This document shows positions 48,047 to 59,018 of a stretch of 64,000 nucleotides of DNA, one piece after another. The notes beneath the pieces are model-generated. The model was not told where the DNA came from. It made no database searches and was given only the letters and a program-made list of their open reading frames with translations. The position numbers and the translations under genes are program-made. Every line of letters begins with the position of its first letter. Position 1 is the first letter of the stretch. This DNA comes from Spartobacteria bacterium LR76 (lineage in GTDB: Bacteria > Verrucomicrobiota > Verrucomicrobiia > Chthoniobacterales > Terrimicrobiaceae): contig QAYZ01000011.1 of the NCBI GenBank assembly GCA_003054655.1, forward strand, positions 62,001-126,000, given 5' to 3'.

Positions 48047-48298
48047 ATGAAGACGACGCTGGAGATTCCGGATGAGCTTTACCGGCAGGCGAAGATTCGG
48101 GCGGCGAGCGAGAACCGGAAGATGAAGGATCTCGTGAGCGAGGGGCTGCGGCTTGTGCTGGAGTCGACCGCGAAGAATGCCCGGGGGCGTCGCATGGCCA
48201 AGGCTCCGGTGATCATTCGCAGGGGCAATGAGATTCCTGCGCTGAGCAATGACGAAATGGCGCGCATCCTGGAGCAATCGGGCGAGCGGCTGCCGTGA
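48047..48298 (+). CDS. VapB-like antitoxin
   Basis: This 83-residue protein has an N-terminal ribbon-helix-helix-type segment MKTTLEIPDELYRQAKIRAA and a following helix MKDLVSEGLRLVLES. A C-terminal tail (ALSNDEMARILEQSGERLP) would wrap the toxin. It overlaps the PIN toxin start by 4 bp (GTGA). Confidence 0.82.
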   Translation: MKTTLEIPDELYRQAKIRAASENRKMKDLVSEGLRLVLESTAKNARGRRMAKAPVIIRRGNEIPALSNDEMARILEQSGERLP

Positions 48299-48726
48299 GG
48301 TTCCTGCCCGACGTTAACGTGCTGTTCCCGCTGATGGTGAGCCGCCATGCCCATCGGAGCGCCGCGCTGGAGTGGTTTGATGGAGCAGATGCGGGGCAGA
48401 TTGCCGTGTGCCGGCTGACCAAACTCGGTGTCCTACGGCTGCTTTGCACTCCGCAGATCATGGGCGCGGATGTGCTGACTCCCAGGGCGGCCATCGAGGC
48501 GTTTGGCGTATTGGAGGACGATGAGCGCATCGTGTTCGCGATGGAACCCGAAGGCGTCGACGGCGTCCTCAAGCGACTCGTGGCCCGATGCGCCACGACG
48601 CCCAATCTCTGGAGCGACGCCTATCTTGCGGCTTTCGCGAAGCAGGCGAGGTTGCGGCTGGTTTCGTTCGACCGGGGGTTTGCGAAATTCCCCGGCTTCG
48701 ATTTTATCCGGCTTGAGGGGCAGTAG
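48295..48726 (+). CDS. VapC-like PIN domain toxin
   Basis: This 143-residue PIN-domain ribonuclease has the first catalytic Asp in MRFLPDVNVLFPLMVS and later acids in WSDAYLAAFA and LVSFDRGFAKFPGFDF. In the second motif the usual Glu is replaced (CRLTKLGVLRLL), as in one known subgroup. It starts at GTG 48295. Its last 13 codons are repeated in damaged form at 50069-50108. Confidence 0.87.
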   Translation: MRFLPDVNVLFPLMVSRHAHRSAALEWFDGADAGQIAVCRLTKLGVLRLLCTPQIMGADVLTPRAAIEAFGVLEDDERIVFAMEPEGVDGVLKRLVARCATTPNLWSDAYLAAFAKQARLRLVSFDRGFAKFPGFDFIRLEGQ

Positions 48727-51150: not shown

Positions 51151-52467
51151 CTAGAAAGTCGACATGGTGAGCGGGATCATGTCGGAGTCGCCGTCCGGCG
51201 TGAGAGAGATTTTCTCGACGACGTTTTCGCGGAGCTCCGCGGCGCGTTGATTGTAGGAGACGACGATCTGGTTGCGCGTATCCAGCAGTTCCGTGAGTCT
51301 GGTACGGTTGCGGGCGGAGCTGATTTTTGGGGCGACGTTTTTGCGCCAATAAGAAGCGTCGAGAGTGTTGATGTTGGCGGATTGGGTCTTTGGGTTCTTG
51401 GTGTCGAAAATGTAGGTGACGGTTTTTTGGTCGATGCCGGAATCCAGCAGATGCTGGCGGATGTCCTCTTCCACGCCGCCGAGTTTGTCGAGGGCGTCGC
51501 GATAGGCCTCGTAGCCGGGCGTCTCGCGGGTGGGTTTGAGGTCGATGGGCTGGGCAATTTTGAAATAGGTGGCTCGCGGGCCGAAGAAATATTTCTTCCC
51601 GTACCAGCTATCCCCCGAGGCATAGCGCAGTTCATAGGAGCCGGTGGGCAGTTTGCAGGTGAGAGGGTCGCCTCCGGTGAGATAGGCGATGAGTTCCGGC
51701 GAGCCGCCCTCCGCAGGGGTAAGGATGATGAAGTAGTCGAGCCCCGGATCTGTGCTGATTTCCAGCGTGGCGTATTTTTTGCCTTCCTTGTTGGAGAAAA
51801 GGATGCCGGACGCGGGGCGGGTGATCTCGGGCGCGGAGAAATGAGGGAGATTGAGCGTGATGGCCTCTGGCGGGGCGGCGAAGGCGGGGTTGGATTTGCG
51901 GGATGCGGGAGTAGCCGCAGGAGCGAGGTTGGGGGGTGGCGTTGGTTGATGCCGGTCGATGGTCGCTCGGGGCTTGGAGATATTCGCCGCGACGACAGGC
52001 AGGAATAAAGGCAGGAAAATGAGGGCGGAAATCCCGATCACAACCAGGCTAAAGCAACAGATGATGATGATGAATATCGTGTTGGAGCTGGGACCGGAGG
52101 GGGCTGGGCTGACGCTTTTGGCTGTTGTTGGGAGAATGGGCAGCGGGACAGTGGCGGCAGGCAGGCTGGGGCGATCCGATAGTGGAGGGACGGGAGGTGG
52201 GACGGGCGCAGCAGGGACCGAAGTTTCCGGGATCGGCGCGAGTGTTGTCGCGGCAGGCAGGGTGGCGTCGTAGGCCTGGCGGCGTGCGGGATCGTCGAGG
52301 GTTTCCAGGGCCGCGTTGAGGGAGCGCCACGAGCCGGGGGGCAGGGTGGCCTGCATACGGGCGTCCATGTACCGACGAGCCTGGGTGAGGTAGGCGCGGC
52401 GGATGTCCTCGCGCGAGGCGGCGCGGGAAACCTCGAGGATTTCGTAGCAGGTGCGATCGTCGGACAT
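51151..52467 (-). CDS. Membrane protein with degenerate J domain
   Basis: This 438-residue protein has a J-domain-like start (residues 5-70: CYEILEVSRAASREDIRRAY and SLNAALETLDDPARRQAYDA). The HPD motif needed to stimulate Hsp70 is replaced (ARRYMDARMQ). A Pro-rich linker, one transmembrane helix (about 128-155, NTIFIIIICCFSLVVIGISA), a second Pro-rich stretch and a ~230-residue extracytoplasmic domain follow. The topology puts the J-like domain in the cytoplasm. It lies just downstream of, and on the same strand as, the secreted protein at 52508-53431. Function unknown. Confidence 0.65.
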   Translation of the reverse strand: MSDDRTCYEILEVSRAASREDIRRAYLTQARRYMDARMQATLPPGSWRSLNAALETLDDPARRQAYDATLPAATTLAPIPETSVPAAPVPPPVPPLSDRPSLPAATVPLPILPTTAKSVSPAPSGPSSNTIFIIIICCFSLVVIGISALIFLPLFLPVVAANISKPRATIDRHQPTPPPNLAPAATPASRKSNPAFAAPPEAITLNLPHFSAPEITRPASGILFSNKEGKKYATLEISTDPGLDYFIILTPAEGGSPELIAYLTGGDPLTCKLPTGSYELRYASGDSWYGKKYFFGPRATYFKIAQPIDLKPTRETPGYEAYRDALDKLGGVEEDIRQHLLDSGIDQKTVTYIFDTKNPKTQSANINTLDASYWRKNVAPKISSARNRTRLTELLDTRNQIVVSYNQRAAELRENVVEKISLTPDGDSDMIPLTMSTF

Positions 52468-53622: not shown

Positions 53623-53994
53623 GTGACGAAGATCGTGATTTCCGATCAGGATCTCGCGGCGGCGGGGCCGGGAGCGGCGAGCGTGGCTGGACGGGATGCG
53701 GGGGATATTTCACCCGCGTGGAGATGGGGGCTGCTGGCCTCGGCTTTTGTGCTGCCGATCCTGTGTATTGCTTGTGCGGGAGCGCTGATTGCGGTACGCA
53801 CCAAGCCCGCCGAGATGCGGGCGGGAATGGCTCGATATTGCTGTGTGCTGCTGATCGTGAGCGGGTTGGTGACGTCGGTCTTTACCGTGGCGGGATGGGC
53901 CCTGGCGGGAAAGAGTCCTCCCTGGGAGGGAAGCCGCGGGCGCATGCATGTGATGGAACGAAATCTGAAGGGAGAGAACTTATGCCAAGTATAG
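53623..53994 (+). CDS. Small two-helix membrane protein, first gene of the Ubl operon
   Basis: This 123-residue protein has a soluble, Ala/Gly-rich N-terminus and two membrane helices (about 33-57 WGLLASAFVLPILCIACAGA and 70-93 YCCVLLIVSGLVTSVFTVAG). It starts at GTG 53623 with GAAGGGG in front. Its 3' end overlaps the ubiquitin-fold gene by 13 bp, so it belongs to the same transcript. I recognise no family; a membrane scaffold or small regulator of the conjugation system is a guess from context. Confidence 0.65.
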   Translation: MTKIVISDQDLAAAGPGAASVAGRDAGDISPAWRWGLLASAFVLPILCIACAGALIAVRTKPAEMRAGMARYCCVLLIVSGLVTSVFTVAGWALAGKSPPWEGSRGRMHVMERNLKGENLCQV

Positions 53995-54251
53995 AGGTGA
54001 CTGTGTATGACTCGACGGAGAACAAGCGCGTGCCGGTCGAGTTGCCGGACGACGCTCCGGCGAACAAGCTTATCGCCATCCTGGTGGAAAAGCTGAATTT
54101 GCCGCGCAATGGCCCGGACGGCGCGCCGCTAAGCTATAAGTTTCACCACAAGAACAGCGGCCGCCAGATCCAGGATGCGCAGACTCTGGAGGCGGCGGGG
54201 GTTGCGACGGGCGATATCCTCAGGTTGCAGCCGGAGATCACGGCGGGCTGA
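53982..54251 (+). CDS. Ubiquitin-like protein, YukD/EsaB type, with C-terminal Ala-Gly
   Basis: This 89-residue protein is a complete beta-grasp domain: strand 1 PSIEVTVYDSTENKRVPVEL, helix DDAPANKLIAILVEKLNLP, then LSYKFHHKNSGRQIQ and QTLEAAGVATGDILRLQPE. The pattern matches the YukD/EsaB/WXG100-secretion ubiquitin-like family. It ends ...EITAG, so the terminal Gly is free without any cleavage and could be adenylated directly by the E1-like enzyme encoded 22 bp downstream. GGAGAG 6 nt before the ATG gives a clear ribosome site. Role inferred: the protein tag of the pathway. Confidence 0.85.
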   Translation: MPSIEVTVYDSTENKRVPVELPDDAPANKLIAILVEKLNLPRNGPDGAPLSYKFHHKNSGRQIQDAQTLEAAGVATGDILRLQPEITAG

Positions 54252-54273: not shown

Positions 54274-55506
54274 GTGATTCAAATTTCCGCAGAGGAGCTG
54301 AATGAGGACAGGTTCAGCCGTTTCCGCCTGATCGGCTGGTGGGACCAGCAGAGGCTGAGATCGGCCAATGTCGTCGTGATCGGCGCGGGCGCACTGGGCA
54401 ACGAGATCGTCAAAAATCTCGTGCTGCTGGGCGTGGAGCATCTGCTCGTGGTGGATTGCGACCGGATCGAGCATTCGAATCTCTCGCGCAGCGTGCTCTT
54501 TCGCACGGCGGACGTGGGGAAATCCAAGGCGCGCACGGCGGCGGAGGCGGCGCGGGAGTTGAGCGATGGGCAGACGACGGCGCATTACCTCGATGCCAAT
54601 GTGATGGCGGAGGTCGGGCTGGGGGTTTTTGGCTGGGCGGATGTGATCATCGCCGGCCTGGACAATCGCGAGGCGCGGCTGTGGATCAATCGCTGCGCGT
54701 GGAAGATGGACCGTCCCTGGGTGGATGGCGCGATCGAGGGGATCAACGGCGTGGCCCGCGTGTTCCTGCCGGGGCGGGCTCCCTGCTACGAGTGCACGCT
54801 GGGAGAGACGGACTGGCAGATCCTGGAGCGGCGCATGTCGTGCAATCTGCTGACCCGCGAGGAGATGCTGGGCGGCAAGGTGCCGACGACGCCCACGACG
54901 GGATCTGTCATTGCCGGGATCGAGGTGCAGGAGGCGGTGAAGCTGCTGCACGGCCTGCCGGTGCTGGCGGGGCAGGGGTTCGTCTTCGACGGGCTGCATC
55001 ACACCTCCTACGTGGTCGAGTATACGGAGAATCCTGACTGCCTCAGCCACGAGGTCTACGAGGAGGTGATGATTTTTCCCGGGCGGTCGGATGAGACGAC
55101 GCTCGCTGCGCTGCTGGACTTTGGCCGGGAACGGCTGGGCGCGGAGAGCGGCGTGGTGGTGGAGTTCAGCCGTGATGTGATCCGGGAACTACGCTGCCCC
55201 CGGTGTGGAGTGGCGGACGAGGTATTCGCCCCCGTGGGAACGATCTCGGCGGCGCAGGGACGCTGCCCGCGCTGCGAGACGATGCGCGAGGTGGTGGCGC
55301 TGCATGGATTTCACGGTGAGCCGGAGCTGGCGGAGCGGAGGCTTTCGCAACTCGGGCTCCCGGCTTTCGATGTTTTCACGGCGCGCAAGGGCGGCCGACA
55401 GGTGGCGATCCTGATCGATGGTGATCGCGCGGACGTGCTCGGTCCTCTGGCGGAGAAGCCGCCCGGCGTGTGGCCGGAGGCGAGGAGGGCGTATGCCGGA
55501 GAGTGA
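54274..55506 (+). CDS. E1-like (ThiF/MoeB fold) Ubl-activating enzyme with zinc ribbon
   Basis: This 410-residue protein starts DRFSRFRLIGWWDQQRLRSA and has the nucleotide loop GAGALG (37-42), D61/D63, the Arg-finger region N69-L-S-R72, K85 and D130 of adenylating E1s. C171-x2-C174 and C256 take the place of the usual two CxxC zinc pairs. C190, just before the TREEMLGGKVPTTPTTGS crossover region, is the best candidate for a thioester cysteine. A C-terminal extension adds a zinc ribbon, C308-x2-C311 and C331-x2-C334. It starts at GTG 54274. It should adenylate the Ubl C-terminus and pass it to the E2-like protein. Confidence 0.88.
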   Translation: MIQISAEELNEDRFSRFRLIGWWDQQRLRSANVVVIGAGALGNEIVKNLVLLGVEHLLVVDCDRIEHSNLSRSVLFRTADVGKSKARTAAEAARELSDGQTTAHYLDANVMAEVGLGVFGWADVIIAGLDNREARLWINRCAWKMDRPWVDGAIEGINGVARVFLPGRAPCYECTLGETDWQILERRMSCNLLTREEMLGGKVPTTPTTGSVIAGIEVQEAVKLLHGLPVLAGQGFVFDGLHHTSYVVEYTENPDCLSHEVYEEVMIFPGRSDETTLAALLDFGRERLGAESGVVVEFSRDVIRELRCPRCGVADEVFAPVGTISAAQGRCPRCETMREVVALHGFHGEPELAERRLSQLGLPAFDVFTARKGGRQVAILIDGDRADVLGPLAEKPPGVWPEARRAYAGE

Positions 55507-56188
55507 AGCCAGCGCACCTGCCGCGCCCTGCCGGGTCGAGATCGACGCGCAGGTGCTCACGGAAATCCGCCAGCATGCCCGTAGCGCGATGGCGGAGGAA
55601 ATCTGCGGCGTGCTCATCGGCGAGGTGGCTGAGGGCGTGACGAAGGTTTCGGCGCGCATCCCGGGCGAGGGAGCTGCGCAGGCGGGAGCGCAGGTGACGT
55701 TCACCCAGGAAGCCTGGGAGCATATCTACCGGGTGAAGGACGAGCAGTATCCCGACCTCGCGGTGGTGGGGTGGTATCACTCGCACCCGGGGTTTGGCAT
55801 TTTCTTCTCGGACTACGACGAGTTCATCCATGCGAATTTTTTCAACGCGCCGCATCAGGTCGGCTGGGTGTGCGACCCGCACTCCGGCGACGAGGGGTGC
55901 TTTGGCTGGGTGGAGGGCGAGGTACGGCTGCTCGGGCTGGTCGGCGTGACGCGGCCCGGAGGCGACTGCCGGGTGGAGGAGCAGCCTGCCCCTGTGCCGC
56001 CCAAGGCGACATGGCGATGGGTCGGCCAGGCCTGGAAGGTGCTGGAAATCCTGCTCATCGTGCTGCTGGCGTTTTTCATCGGTGTATTGGCGCGTCCTCT
56101 GGTGGATCGCTGGGACGTGCTGCCGTCGTGGTTGCGCCTGCCGCATCACGCGCCGGTACAGATCGGAGGGATTTTTGGACATGAGTGA
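55493..56188 (+). CDS. Membrane-anchored JAMM/MPN+ isopeptidase (deubiquitinase-like)
   Basis: This 231-residue protein has a JAMM metalloprotease domain with all catalytic residues: E36 in AEEICGVLIGE, H96-S-H98-P and S106/D109 in WYHSHPGFGIFFSDYDEF, with the standard 11-residue step from H98 to D109. A hydrophobic helix (VLEILLIVLLAFFIGVLARP, about 180-200) anchors it to the membrane near the C-terminus, with the catalytic domain inside. Since the Ubl already ends in Gly, the likely role is removing it from targets rather than maturing it. It overlaps the E1 gene by 14 bp and the FHA gene by 8 bp. Confidence 0.9.
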   Translation: MPESEASAPAAPCRVEIDAQVLTEIRQHARSAMAEEICGVLIGEVAEGVTKVSARIPGEGAAQAGAQVTFTQEAWEHIYRVKDEQYPDLAVVGWYHSHPGFGIFFSDYDEFIHANFFNAPHQVGWVCDPHSGDEGCFGWVEGEVRLLGLVGVTRPGGDCRVEEQPAPVPPKATWRWVGQAWKVLEILLIVLLAFFIGVLARPLVDRWDVLPSWLRLPHHAPVQIGGIFGHE

Positions 56189-57236
56189 GGAAAAGATCAG
56201 GATCACGACGGAGGATATCGCGGCGCTCGACATCGCGGAGGTCTCGGCTCCGGTGCCAGCGCAGGGAGCGAAAGCCGAGGACGGCGTCTGGGGCACGGTG
56301 GGAGAGGAAGACCAGGGCGGAGAGGCCAAGGCCAGCTTCTGGCTGAAGTCGTGGGTTTATCTCGGGCTGGCGGGCGCGGCGGGAGCACTCGTCGGCTGGA
56401 TGATTTTTGAGCCGTGGTTTGATGATTACCCCGTTCGCTCTTTAGTCGGCAACATGGTCTTCCTGCCCGGCGTGATGGCGATGATCGCGGTCGCGCTCGG
56501 GTTGGCGGATAGCCTGGTCGAGCGATCATGGACGAAGGTGGCGATGGCTGCGTGCCTGTCGTTTCCGCTCGGTGCGGTCTTTGGTTTTGTCTTTGGGTTC
56601 GTGTCCAATATTACATTCTATCTGGAAAAGCAGATTCTATTGGAGGCGGGTGTCGTGGTGGCGAAGGACAGCCCGGCGTTGTGGATAGCGAGGGCGCTGG
56701 TGTGGATGATATTTGGTATCGGAGGCGGCGTGTGCTTCGGTCTGGCGGGAAGGTCCGGAAGGAAATGCCTGTACGGTGTGGCTGGAGGAGTCGTGGGAGC
56801 GTTCATCGGGGGCATCCTGTTTGATCCGATCTCGATCGTGGCGCATGGCGCAGAGGCGAGCCGCGCTCTCGGGATGGTTTGCTTCGGGCTGGCCTCCGGG
56901 ATTGCGATCGGCTTCGTGGAGAGCGCCCTGAAAGACCGCTGGCTGTATGTGGTGGCGGGGCCGCTGGCGGGCAAGCAGTTCGTCATCTACAAGGAGGTGA
57001 CCCAGGTCGGGCGGCGGCAGACGAATGACATCTATCTCTTCAAGGACGAGACGATCGAACCGCTGCATGCGCGAATCGAGCGGCGCGGCGCGGCCAGCAT
57101 GCTGGTGGCCCAAGGACCCGTCTATGTCGGAGGCCAGCCGGTAACGCAACGCGCCCTGCGGACAGGGGATCTGATCAAGATCGGGCGCTACACTTTCCGG
57201 TACGAAGAAAAACCCGTGAAGAAGAAAAATGGTTGA
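56181..57236 (+). CDS. Multi-pass membrane protein with C-terminal FHA domain
   Basis: This 351-residue protein has an acidic N-terminus (1-50), then about six Gly/Ala-rich membrane segments between residues 54 and 258 (for example WVYLGLAGAAGALVGWMIF and IARALVWMIFGIGGGVCFGL). A cytoplasmic FHA domain (about 262-345) shows VTQVGRRQTNDIYLFKDETI, with the Gly-Arg and His-Ala (LHARIERRG) positions that bind phosphothreonine. It may recruit phosphorylated partners to the membrane site of conjugation. It overlaps the JAMM and the RING genes by 8 bp each. Confidence 0.85.
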   Translation: MSEEKIRITTEDIAALDIAEVSAPVPAQGAKAEDGVWGTVGEEDQGGEAKASFWLKSWVYLGLAGAAGALVGWMIFEPWFDDYPVRSLVGNMVFLPGVMAMIAVALGLADSLVERSWTKVAMAACLSFPLGAVFGFVFGFVSNITFYLEKQILLEAGVVVAKDSPALWIARALVWMIFGIGGGVCFGLAGRSGRKCLYGVAGGVVGAFIGGILFDPISIVAHGAEASRALGMVCFGLASGIAIGFVESALKDRWLYVVAGPLAGKQFVIYKEVTQVGRRQTNDIYLFKDETIEPLHARIERRGAASMLVAQGPVYVGGQPVTQRALRTGDLIKIGRYTFRYEEKPVKKKNG

Positions 57237-58011
57237 GAAATGTCCCTATTGCCGCGAGGCGGTCGAAGAAGACGATCGGATGATCTGCCCCTCATGCAAG
57301 ACGCCGCATCATCCCGACTGCTGGCATGAGAACGAAGGCTGTACGATCTTTGGCTGCGAAAATACGCCCGTGGAGGAGCCCAAGGTCGCGGTGACCGAGC
57401 TGGATGTCACTCCAATGGCCGCCAACTCGCCGACGGCGAAGTATTTCCTGGCCCGTGGCGGGGAGAAGTCTGGGCCATTCAGTTTCGAAGAGGTGCTTGA
57501 ACGGCATCGCCGCGGATTTAGCGCGGACTCCGATCTGTGCTGGAGAGAAGGGACGCGTGAGTGGGTGCCGTTGTCGCGAGTGCTGGCTGCGCCCATCGAT
57601 TCGGAACCGGCGAAAGTTCCCGAGGTATTGGAGGAGGAGGCGGACCCGATGGCCGGGGTGCCGCGTTTTGGACGGCGGGTGTACTTTTCGTGGCTGTTCG
57701 GAATGCTCATTGTTTCCAAGCTCTTCATGATCAGCGAGTCGACGGTTCTCGTGGGTGCGCTGGCGGTGCTGGTGGGGTGGTCGATCATTGCCTACAAGCG
57801 CCTCCGCGATCTTGGATATGCGGGCTGGTACCTGGTACTATTCTTTGTGCCGATCGTTAATATCCTGATCGGTTTTCATCTGCTCTTTTCGCCGCGGGGC
57901 TACGCGATTACGAAAAAACGGGACTGGGTGCAGATCACGGGGATCATCCTGTGCCTTGGATTTTTCCTCCTGATTGTCCTGGGGATTGCCCTGCCAAATC
58001 TGTCCCGATGA
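57229..58011 (+). CDS. Prokaryotic RING + GYF_2 + DUF805-like membrane protein (E3-like)
   Basis: This 260-residue protein begins with a treble-clef RING-type zinc domain: C5-x2-C8, C20-x2-C23, H27/H28, C31, C38 and C43 (MICPSCKTPHHPDCWHENEG). This matches the prokaryotic RING family 1 pattern. Residues 64-115 are a GYF_2 domain (YFLARGGEKSGPFSFEEVLE, WREGTREWVPLSRVL), which binds Pro-rich peptides. Residues 135-260 carry four membrane helices of DUF805 type with YKRLRDLGYAGWYLVLFFVP. In context it is the best candidate for an E3 ligase-like adaptor. It overlaps both neighbours (8 and 4 bp). Confidence 0.85.
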   Translation: MVEKCPYCREAVEEDDRMICPSCKTPHHPDCWHENEGCTIFGCENTPVEEPKVAVTELDVTPMAANSPTAKYFLARGGEKSGPFSFEEVLERHRRGFSADSDLCWREGTREWVPLSRVLAAPIDSEPAKVPEVLEEEADPMAGVPRFGRRVYFSWLFGMLIVSKLFMISESTVLVGALAVLVGWSIIAYKRLRDLGYAGWYLVLFFVPIVNILIGFHLLFSPRGYAITKKRDWVQITGIILCLGFFLLIVLGIALPNLSR

Positions 58012-59018
58012 GCAGTCCGCGCATACGACGGTTGATGCTGGATCAGCAGCATCTGAACAGACGGTTCTCCGGGTGGACTCCGATCGAGGTCGTGCCGGTC
58101 TCCGGCGACCCGGCGGAGCTTTACCGGGTGACGTATCGGGTGAAGGGACTCTACACCGAGCCCGGCGGGCGCATCGTGGAGCGCCGCGAGCATGTGATGG
58201 AGGTGAGTCTGTCGCTGGGGTATCCGCGCCGTGCGCCGCAGTGCAAGATGCTTACGCCGGTGTTTCATCCGAACTTTGACGAGGCGAGCGTGTGCATCGG
58301 CGACTTCTGGGCGGCATCGGAGGGGCTCGATGACCTGATCGTTCGCATCGGGCGGATGATCGCCTACCAGGAGTATAATACCCGCAGCCCGCTCAATGGG
58401 CTCGCCGCGAAGTGGGCCGAGCAAAACATGGCCCGCCTGCCGGTCGATGATGTCGAGATTGCTCCTCCGGTCGAGAATCTCGAGGCCGTGGCGGAGGAAA
58501 AGATCGTCGTGCAGGTGGATGAACCTGCTGCTGCCATCGAGACGGTAAGGCGGGATGTATTGCCTGTTGCTCCCCCGGCATCAATGCCAAGTCCGCCCCG
58601 ACCTCCGTCGCCCGCGTTTTCTCCTGTTCCAACGCCTGAGAGTTCCTTTGCCCCGCCCTCGGTGGTTTCCATGGGAATGGGATTGGTGCGGGTCGGCGGG
58701 GTGCCCGGCAACCCGGCGGCGGTCGCGCCGATCGGAGGTACGCTCCGGCTGAATTTCGGCCCGCTCGCGATCGGGCTGCCTGATGGGCGTCCGCTCAAAA
58801 TCGGGAGCCGCCCCGGCAACGACATCGTGATCGCAGACCCGAGCCTGTCTGCGGTACATGCCGATGTCACACGGCGGGGAGATCGGGTAACCGTGAAGGA
58901 TCTCGGGTCGGCCCGGGGTACGCGGCTCAATGGCCTGCCCGTCCTGCAATCTCTCGTGGAGACCGGAGACAAGATCGTCTTTGGCGAGATCCAGGCTGTG
59001 CTTGAGGACGGCGAATAG
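58008..59018 (+). CDS. E2-like ubiquitin-conjugating (UBC fold) protein fused to FHA domain
   Basis: This 336-residue protein has a UBC-like domain at residues 1-150: N-terminal helix IRRLMLDQQHLNRRF, strands, the Pro-rich GYPRRAPQCKMLTPVFHPNF with H87-P88-N89, and the active-site-type cysteine C96 (SVCIGDFWA), seven residues after Asn89 (eight in most eukaryotic E2s). A Pro/Ala-rich linker (165-240) leads to a C-terminal FHA domain (about 250-335) with GSRPGNDIVIADPSLSAVHA and DLGSARGTRLNG. It should accept the Ubl from the E1 as a thioester, while the FHA domain may direct it to phosphorylated targets. ATGA overlap with the RING gene; last gene of the operon. Confidence 0.88.
   Translation: MSSPRIRRLMLDQQHLNRRFSGWTPIEVVPVSGDPAELYRVTYRVKGLYTEPGGRIVERREHVMEVSLSLGYPRRAPQCKMLTPVFHPNFDEASVCIGDFWAASEGLDDLIVRIGRMIAYQEYNTRSPLNGLAAKWAEQNMARLPVDDVEIAPPVENLEAVAEEKIVVQVDEPAAAIETVRRDVLPVAPPASMPSPPRPPSPAFSPVPTPESSFAPPSVVSMGMGLVRVGGVPGNPAAVAPIGGTLRLNFGPLAIGLPDGRPLKIGSRPGNDIVIADPSLSAVHADVTRRGDRVTVKDLGSARGTRLNGLPVLQSLVETGDKIVFGEIQAVLEDGE

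Follow-up and report, generated by a model that had tools for sequence, protein, structure and literature searches.

Operons that combine a YukD-type ubiquitin-like protein (Ubl), an E1, an E2, a JAB peptidase and a RING protein in prokaryotes were reportedly described by Burroughs, Iyer and Aravind in Mol BioSyst in 2011, with the proposal that YukD-like Ubls are conjugated; that account is not known to include an FHA domain fused to the E2, a motif common to four of the proteins or a linked trypsin-like protease. In eukaryotes, RNF8 and CHFR are ligases that unite an FHA domain with a RING. An earlier survey in Genome Biology (2006) defined the operon types 6a-6e, in which bacterial Ubl, E1, E2 and JAB occur together; there the E2 is often fused to the E1, YukD is treated as unconjugated and the term FHA has 0 occurrences (PMC1779556). 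FHA domains are described as having five mostly conserved residues, Gly, Arg, Ser, His and Asn; three of these, Arg, Ser and Asn, touch the bound phosphopeptide (PMC4037201).

The DNA studied here, which we call the window, is a stretch of 64,000 nucleotides from Spartobacteria bacterium LR76. It holds an operon in which a YukD-like Ubl, E1, JAB, E2 and Prok-RING protein are all encoded, the same gene kinds as in the operons reportedly described in 2011. The co-location of Ubl, E1, E2 and JAB is also that of types 6a-6e, whereas the E2 of the window is fused to an FHA domain. We place the E2–FHA gene as a form with FHA on the E2, confined to one clade, within the already known prokaryotic RING/E1/E2/JAB/YukD-Ubl operons. 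In the open literature, the coverage of which stops short of the 2011 paper on these operons, we recognised no description of an E2–FHA protein. On balance, we favour the explanation that this gene encodes the E2 of a membrane-associated Ubl conjugation system and that its FHA domain acts in docking, as a module specific to this clade, and not as a standard phosphothreonine reader.

Gene content and distribution of the operon

The genes of the operon lie on the same (+) strand and overlap or nearly touch at their ends. The first is the remnant of a truncated protease gene (53623..53994), recognised by a profile match to proteins of 340-420 aa in relatives. It is followed by the YukD-type Ubl (53982..54251; Pfam YukD, E 1.7e-15), which ends in QPEITAG directly before the stop, by an E1-like activating enzyme with a ThiF domain and C-terminal Cys pairs (54274..55506; Pfam ThiF, E 1.3e-48) and by a JAB/JAMM peptidase with a C-terminal hydrophobic segment (55493..56188; Pfam JAB, E 1.4e-13). 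Then come a membrane FHA protein (56181..57236; Pfam FHA, E 5.3e-7), which has the N-terminal motif EEKIRITTEDI, six long helices and, at the C-terminus, a non-canonical FHA domain, and a candidate E3 (57229..58011), which has a Prok-RING_1 zinc finger, a GYF_2 domain (Pfam E 9.9e-10 and 5.1e-10) and hydrophobic segments; the start codons of the JAB and membrane FHA genes are our choice. The E2–FHA gene (58008..59018) had been called the last gene in a preliminary description of the sequence, which is true of the operon but not of the window, where more genes follow downstream.

A genome scan with an alignment of the E2 yielded 119 relatives, and 80 loci were kept; the pattern used to pick loci contained T-P-x-x-H-P, so these columns are biased. 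Together with the window, L016 and L019 (L and G numbers are our handles for loci and genomes), this makes 83 distinct loci. Three duplicates, L018 (of L080) and L012 and L017 (both of L052), stand outside the counts, and L018 is the additional row of the 84-row E2 alignment. The E2 is present in all 83 loci, the RING protein in 72, the membrane FHA protein in 63, the JAB in 58, the E1 in 56 and the Ubl in 48. All six occur together in 47 of the 83, many of the other loci being cut by contig ends, and 24 of the 83 have the protease gene in addition to the six. The gene order Ubl-E1-JAB-membrane FHA-RING-E2 is nearly constant. Record titles of the loci include Acidobacteria, Verrucomicrobia, Planctomycetes, Riflebacteria, KSB1, Sumerlaeota and Bacteroidales; among the cultured relatives are Edaphobacter aggregans DSM 19364 (L037) and Acidobacteriaceae ZG23-2 (L033). 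Of 387 genomes in the window's phylum, 5 gave an E2 match. Apart from the window genome these are four more, and the match in one of the four, G127, appears to be spurious (E 2e-4, open frame of 61 residues). Within the phylum of L033, matches occurred in 20 of 396 genomes.

Two loci deserve separate mention. A diverged set of E1, E2 (30% identical) and JAB lies next to a conjugation gene on pCRI9333.03, a plasmid of the cyanobacterium Crinalium epipsammum (L016:8239-11716). A Bacteroidales locus has two neighbouring genes of the membrane-FHA type (L100:4678-7061), the first of which is a profile match without an FHA match.

The operon also invites comparison with two systems of other kinds. 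Type VII secretion loci have a YukD-type Ubl, as this operon does, and their EssC is a membrane protein with FHA domains devoid of phosphothreonine-binding residues (PMC4925161). EssC, however, is a secretion ATPase and there is no ATPase domain here; among the ten window proteins scanned, no EssC or WXG100 genes were found beside the Ubl. As for the Bil/BUB anti-phage systems, our E1 matches the PADLOC models E1-E2 (3e-16) and BilD (1.7e-11), and the JAB gives weak matches; the Ubl, E2, RING and membrane FHA proteins match no model of PADLOC-DB 2.0.0, a library that may lack newer BUB types.

Domains and catalytic site of the E2–FHA protein

The gene is a single open frame of 336 aa. From the letters alone, the preliminary description had proposed a UBC-like domain with an HPN motif and an active-site-type Cys96, joined through a Pro-rich linker to a C-terminal FHA domain, and each of these parts was recovered. 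The E2 (UBC) domain occupies residues 1-150 (58008..58457), with the Pfam UQ_con match at residues 58-141 (E 1.5e-7); the FHA domain covers about residues 246-334 (58743..59009), with the Pfam match at residues 264-326 (E 7.3e-14). Both matches are above cut-off. The best PDB sequence matches are UBE2C for the N-terminal part (E 7e-7) and GarA for the C-terminal part (E 3.9e-6), and a family profile from a 59-row alignment of relatives reaches UBE2C at 1.8e-11. We made an AlphaFold2 model of the protein, in which residues 1-150 take the UBC fold at high confidence (pLDDT 89-98 in ten-residue blocks, with one block at 75). This part superposes on UBE2T (8juc) with Z 12.3 and rmsd 2.4 over 124 residues (VIA-align), and Foldseek matches it to human E2s at E 1.7e-6. 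The linker is disordered over most of its length, with pLDDT below 50 at residues 160-185 and in most of 213-249; the FHA part is modelled strand-rich with a weak stretch at residues 251-282, and residues 241-280 have a pLDDT of 39-51.

The HPN motif lies at residues 87-89 (58266..58274) and the predicted catalytic Cys96 at 58293..58295; both N89 and C96 are conserved, each of them in 83 of the 84 family rows. The lone row without the Cys motif is L092, where the E2-like domain sits inside a very long repeat protein (L092:5065-10971; Sel1-like by eye). The Asn-Cys distance is indeed 7, as had been counted, and this is a rule of the clade and not an oddity of the E2–FHA protein: of the 83 rows in which the motif is found, 78 have the same spacing, and the other five (L016, L019, L081, L082 and L095) have 8. 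A six-frame search of the whole genome found a single UQ_con match, the E2–FHA gene itself, and four FHA matches above cut-off; the FHA search misses the membrane FHA protein, in which a Pfam scan of the protein does detect the domain.

Phosphate-pocket residues of the FHA domains

To compare the FHA domains, we built an alignment of 74 FHA rows taken from the loci and read off the five pocket columns. The E2–FHA protein of the window has Gly266, Ser267 for Arg, Ser281, His284 and Arg303 for Asn. That of L023, the only other E2–FHA protein among the loci, has G, H, S, H and N, with His for Arg and the Asn kept. The phosphate-binding Arg is absent from both copies and the Ser of SxxH is present in both. 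The preliminary description had made phospho-reading depend on conservation of Arg and Ser, and the answer is divided: the Arg is lost, whereas Ser281 is retained. GarA and OdhI are the best sequence matches of the E2–FHA domain and the best fold matches of the membrane FHA domain; in the alignment GarA has all three of Arg, Ser and Asn, but the FHA copies of the window do not. In a gap-free alignment with GarA (E 5e-7), Ser267 stands opposite the Arg and Arg268 follows one residue on, so that an Arg displaced by one position could still contribute; the quality of the model at about residues 251-282 is too low to show the direction of Arg268. With the Ser kept twice, the Asn in L023 and the nearby Arg in the window, some phospho-binding by these domains is conceivable.

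The second FHA domain, two genes upstream (56181-57236), is real: the protein is modelled with a mean pLDDT of 87.9 (AlphaFold2) and its FHA domain matches OdhI with Z 18.2. It had been thought to strengthen a link to kinase signalling, a role that its pocket does not bear out. The window copy reads G, R, E and H with a gap in the fifth column, that is, Arg without Ser and Asn, and among 62 rows of the membrane FHA family Gly is found in 60, His in 62, Arg in 3, Ser in 4 and Arg together with Ser in 0. We discarded this domain as support for phospho-signalling on the strength of the last count.

The FHA domains linked to Prok-RING proteins in ten planctomycete loci (L060, L061, L062, L065, L073, L079, L081, L082, L090 and L095) have canonical Arg and Ser in 10 of 10 cases and Asn as well in 5 of 10. 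We take this architecture to resemble that of RNF8 and CHFR. As in those ligases, the FHA domain of the window sits on a ubiquitin-type enzyme, and the planctomycete FHA-RING proteins are the closest parallel; here, by contrast, the domain is on the E2 and has no Arg. The presence of an FHA domain by itself is thus no evidence for phospho-reading, the residues being lost on the E2 and membrane proteins and kept on the planctomycete RING proteins.

These observations bear on the idea, put forward in the preliminary description, that a Hanks-type kinase phosphorylates proteins on threonine and that the E2 FHA binds these, phosphorylation selecting the substrates for tagging. The domain is clearly an FHA domain with Ser281 and His284 in place, the wider system may phospho-read given the planctomycete RING-FHA proteins, and Hanks-type kinases are encoded in the genome, where 6 open frames hold 8 PF00069 matches, 7 of them above cut-off. 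A search of the window with five usable kinase queries detected no kinase, in agreement with the expectation that any such enzyme would be encoded elsewhere. Kinases occur near the operon in only 5 of the 83 loci (L041, L044, L054, L059 and L088), a count by which we rejected kinase linkage as a feature of the operon; it is not one, and a kinase link in the cell is possible. Against phospho-selection also stand the Arg position, occupied by Ser in the window copy and by His in that of L023, the Arg at the Asn position of the window and the degenerate upstream family. The loss of two of the three phosphopeptide contacts, combined with this degeneracy, weakens the case for phospho-guided reading by the E2. 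We consider such substrate selection unlikely, and a direct link of the E2–FHA protein to kinase signalling, judged from these residues, doubtful. If the FHA domain is instead a docking module, as we favour, its altered phosphothreonine pocket makes unphosphorylated or unusual ligands likelier than standard phosphothreonine peptides.

Rarity and history of the fusion

The fusion of E2 and FHA is present in 2 of the 83 distinct loci, the window and L023 (the positive control of the search), and in 0 of 30 planctomycete E2 loci, which come from 42 matches in 392 genomes and include some loci of the first set. Across 197 genomes of the window's order, only the window genome and G442 have a full E2 among the matches listed; G442 shares contig number and coordinates with the genome of L023. 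A third genome of the order, G556, has a 44-residue piece of the E2. In a tree of E1 and E2 from 49 loci, the window and L023 are sisters (support 100/99), and one fusion is consequently the simplest history. The nearest free-standing FHA proteins of the order, L104 (49% identity) and L107 (42%), keep Arg, Ser and Asn, which suggests that an ordinary FHA domain was recruited to the E2 and altered afterwards.

Other parts are attached to the E2 in relatives. The E2 of L041 carries a TPR (Pfam), and zinc-ribbon-like Cys pairs can be seen by eye before or behind the E2, for example in L045, L052, L053, L060 and L062. The E2 tails are long and Cys-rich in Riflebacteria and several Planctomycetes and bare in most Acidobacteria. 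Since FHA, TPR and zinc-ribbon-like parts interchange on the E2, this position appears to host docking modules of different kinds.

Alternatively, the E2 FHA could be a decaying passenger, fused once, with its ligand site lost and little function left. The two sisters share only 31% identity in their FHA domains and about 71% in their E2 domains, their pocket residues differ and the fusion is known in two genomes only, all of which would suit such decay. FHA domains in general diverge fast, however, and both copies are still readily recognised by Pfam (E 7e-14 in the window, 6e-18 in L023), with no internal stop in either. We regard a passenger as somewhat less probable still than phospho-selection of substrates and retain docking as the favoured role.

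Evidence for Ubl conjugation and a proposed pathway

The explanation that we favour is supported by the gene content, the conserved order, the conserved catalytic residues, the E2 fold and the end of the Ubl, which is near-invariant across phyla. Of 49 Ubl open frames, 48 have PEI[TI]AG at this end, 45 of them as QPEITAG; the sole exception is one of the two frames of L048. Of these 48, 26 stop directly after the motif and 22, such as those of L060 and L097, carry 1 to 51 varied extra residues. A conserved C-terminal Gly with tails in 22 of 48 proteins is expected of a modifier that is trimmed to Gly, and on these sequence features the YukD-type Ubl looks like a processed, conjugated modifier. 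Cys171, Cys174 and Cys190 of the E1 are kept in 54 of 54 rows; by analogy with UBA3, Cys190 is presumably the thioester residue. In the JAB (numbered from 55442), H113, H115, S123 and D126 are found in 57 of 57 rows and E53 in 56 of 57.

The pathway, of which we infer every transfer step as well as the substrates, might run as follows. The JAB would trim the Ubl to its TAG end where a tail is present; the E1 would adenylate the Ubl and take it over as a thioester, with Cys190 as the predicted acceptor; the Ubl would then pass to Cys96 of the E2, and the membrane-anchored RING protein would direct it to substrates, from which the JAB could later remove it. The E2 FHA would keep the E2 on a partner within the system, a role that TPRs or zinc ribbons may have in relatives. 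That there is no protein conjugation at all, the Ubl being a sulfur carrier or having a structural role like that of YukD in type VII secretion, is very improbable: the E1 resembles ThiF/MoeB too, and YukD is reported in the 2006 survey as not covalently conjugated (PMC1779556), but an E2 with Cys96, a RING protein and a JAB are encoded in the same operon and the Ubl tails after the conserved Gly fit JAB processing.

If the Ubl is conjugated, the operon would encode a eukaryote-like E1-E2-RING cascade that is anchored to the membrane and, in many relatives, tied to an HtrA-like protease. Such a cascade would span Acidobacteria, Planctomycetes, Verrucomicrobia and other groups, and would offer a genetically simple test bed for the question of how RING tagging, membrane quality control and FHA modules came to be linked.

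The protease gene and a shared short motif

In relatives, the gene before the Ubl encodes a membrane-anchored trypsin-like protease (Trypsin_2; E 5.4e-23 in L034 and 3.6e-23 in L054), for which the nearest NCBIfam names, all below their cut-offs, are DegP/HtrA/DegS. The motif G-x-S-G-G is present in 19 of 24 protease rows; those without it are the window, L022, L031, L048 and L057, and the frames of L031 and L057 are short. The remnant in the window has the N-terminal motif TKIVISDQDL and, by eye, two hydrophobic segments, and the trypsin-like domain is absent. In a search of the window's own genome, only the N-terminal part of the protease was found, at 53623-53994. We count the absence of the protease domain from this genome against the explanation that we favour.

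A short motif, K-I-x-I-[ST]-x-x-[DE], is common to the protease, membrane FHA, RING and E2 proteins, which are not homologous. The protease N-termini start (M)EKIVIS..E[VI] and the membrane FHA proteins start KIRIT.[ED][DE][LV]; in the RING proteins EPK[LIV]S[VI]S..[DE]L lies downstream of the zinc finger, and the E2 tail reads DPW..KIVIS in many Acidobacteria. In the E2–FHA protein the motif is EEKIVVQVDE at residues 163-172 (58494..58523, + strand), within the disordered linker (matrix, shuffle p 0.003); the RING instance of the window, EPKVAVTELDV, is not significant alone (p 0.13).

A matrix was trained on 21 membrane-FHA instances, a shuffle p of 0.01 or less being counted as a match. With it, matches were found in 16 of 24 protease N-termini, 14 of 44 RING linkers, 15 of 57 E2 C-flanks and 4 of 50 E2 N-flanks, counts that come from related sequences and do not represent independent events. 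The controls gave 1 of 85 for the E2 core, 0 of 59 for the E1, 2 of 58 for the JAB core, 0 of 52 and 0 of 39 for the JAB flanks, 0 of 49 for the Ubl and 0 of 74 for the FHA core. With a second matrix, made from the N-termini of the proteases, there were matches in 29 of 59 starts of membrane FHA proteins, in 7 of 44 RING linkers and in 15 of 57 E2 flanks; a control set of 300 other long open frames gave 0.

The motif resembles, in our judgement, a SUMO-interaction motif. We tentatively suggest that K-[IV]-x-[IV]-[ST]-x-x-[DE]-[LIV] could be a bacterial analogue that binds the Ubl or the degenerate FHA domains and gathers E2, RING protein and protease on the membrane as a single machine for tagging and proteolysis, the FHA domains of the E2 and membrane proteins acting as non-phospho receptors. 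As an alternative, [ST]-x-x-[DE] within the motif could be a phosphosite read by those FHA domains that have Arg and Ser, although E2 tails ending at the Ser do not fit this. No docking of the motif on domains of its own protein was seen in the two AlphaFold2 models, the motif region having a pLDDT below 50 in the E2–FHA protein. In the membrane FHA protein the N-terminal motif is modelled at pLDDT 65-69 with no strand, and the linker at 43-52.

Upstream of the operon and divergent from it lies a gene (51151-52467, - strand) whose product has a DnaJ domain (Pfam E 1.3e-8), then a hydrophobic segment and finally a long C-terminal part. Further upstream, two small genes (48047-48726, + strand) resemble, as judged by eye, a toxin-antitoxin pair of the VapB/VapC kind.
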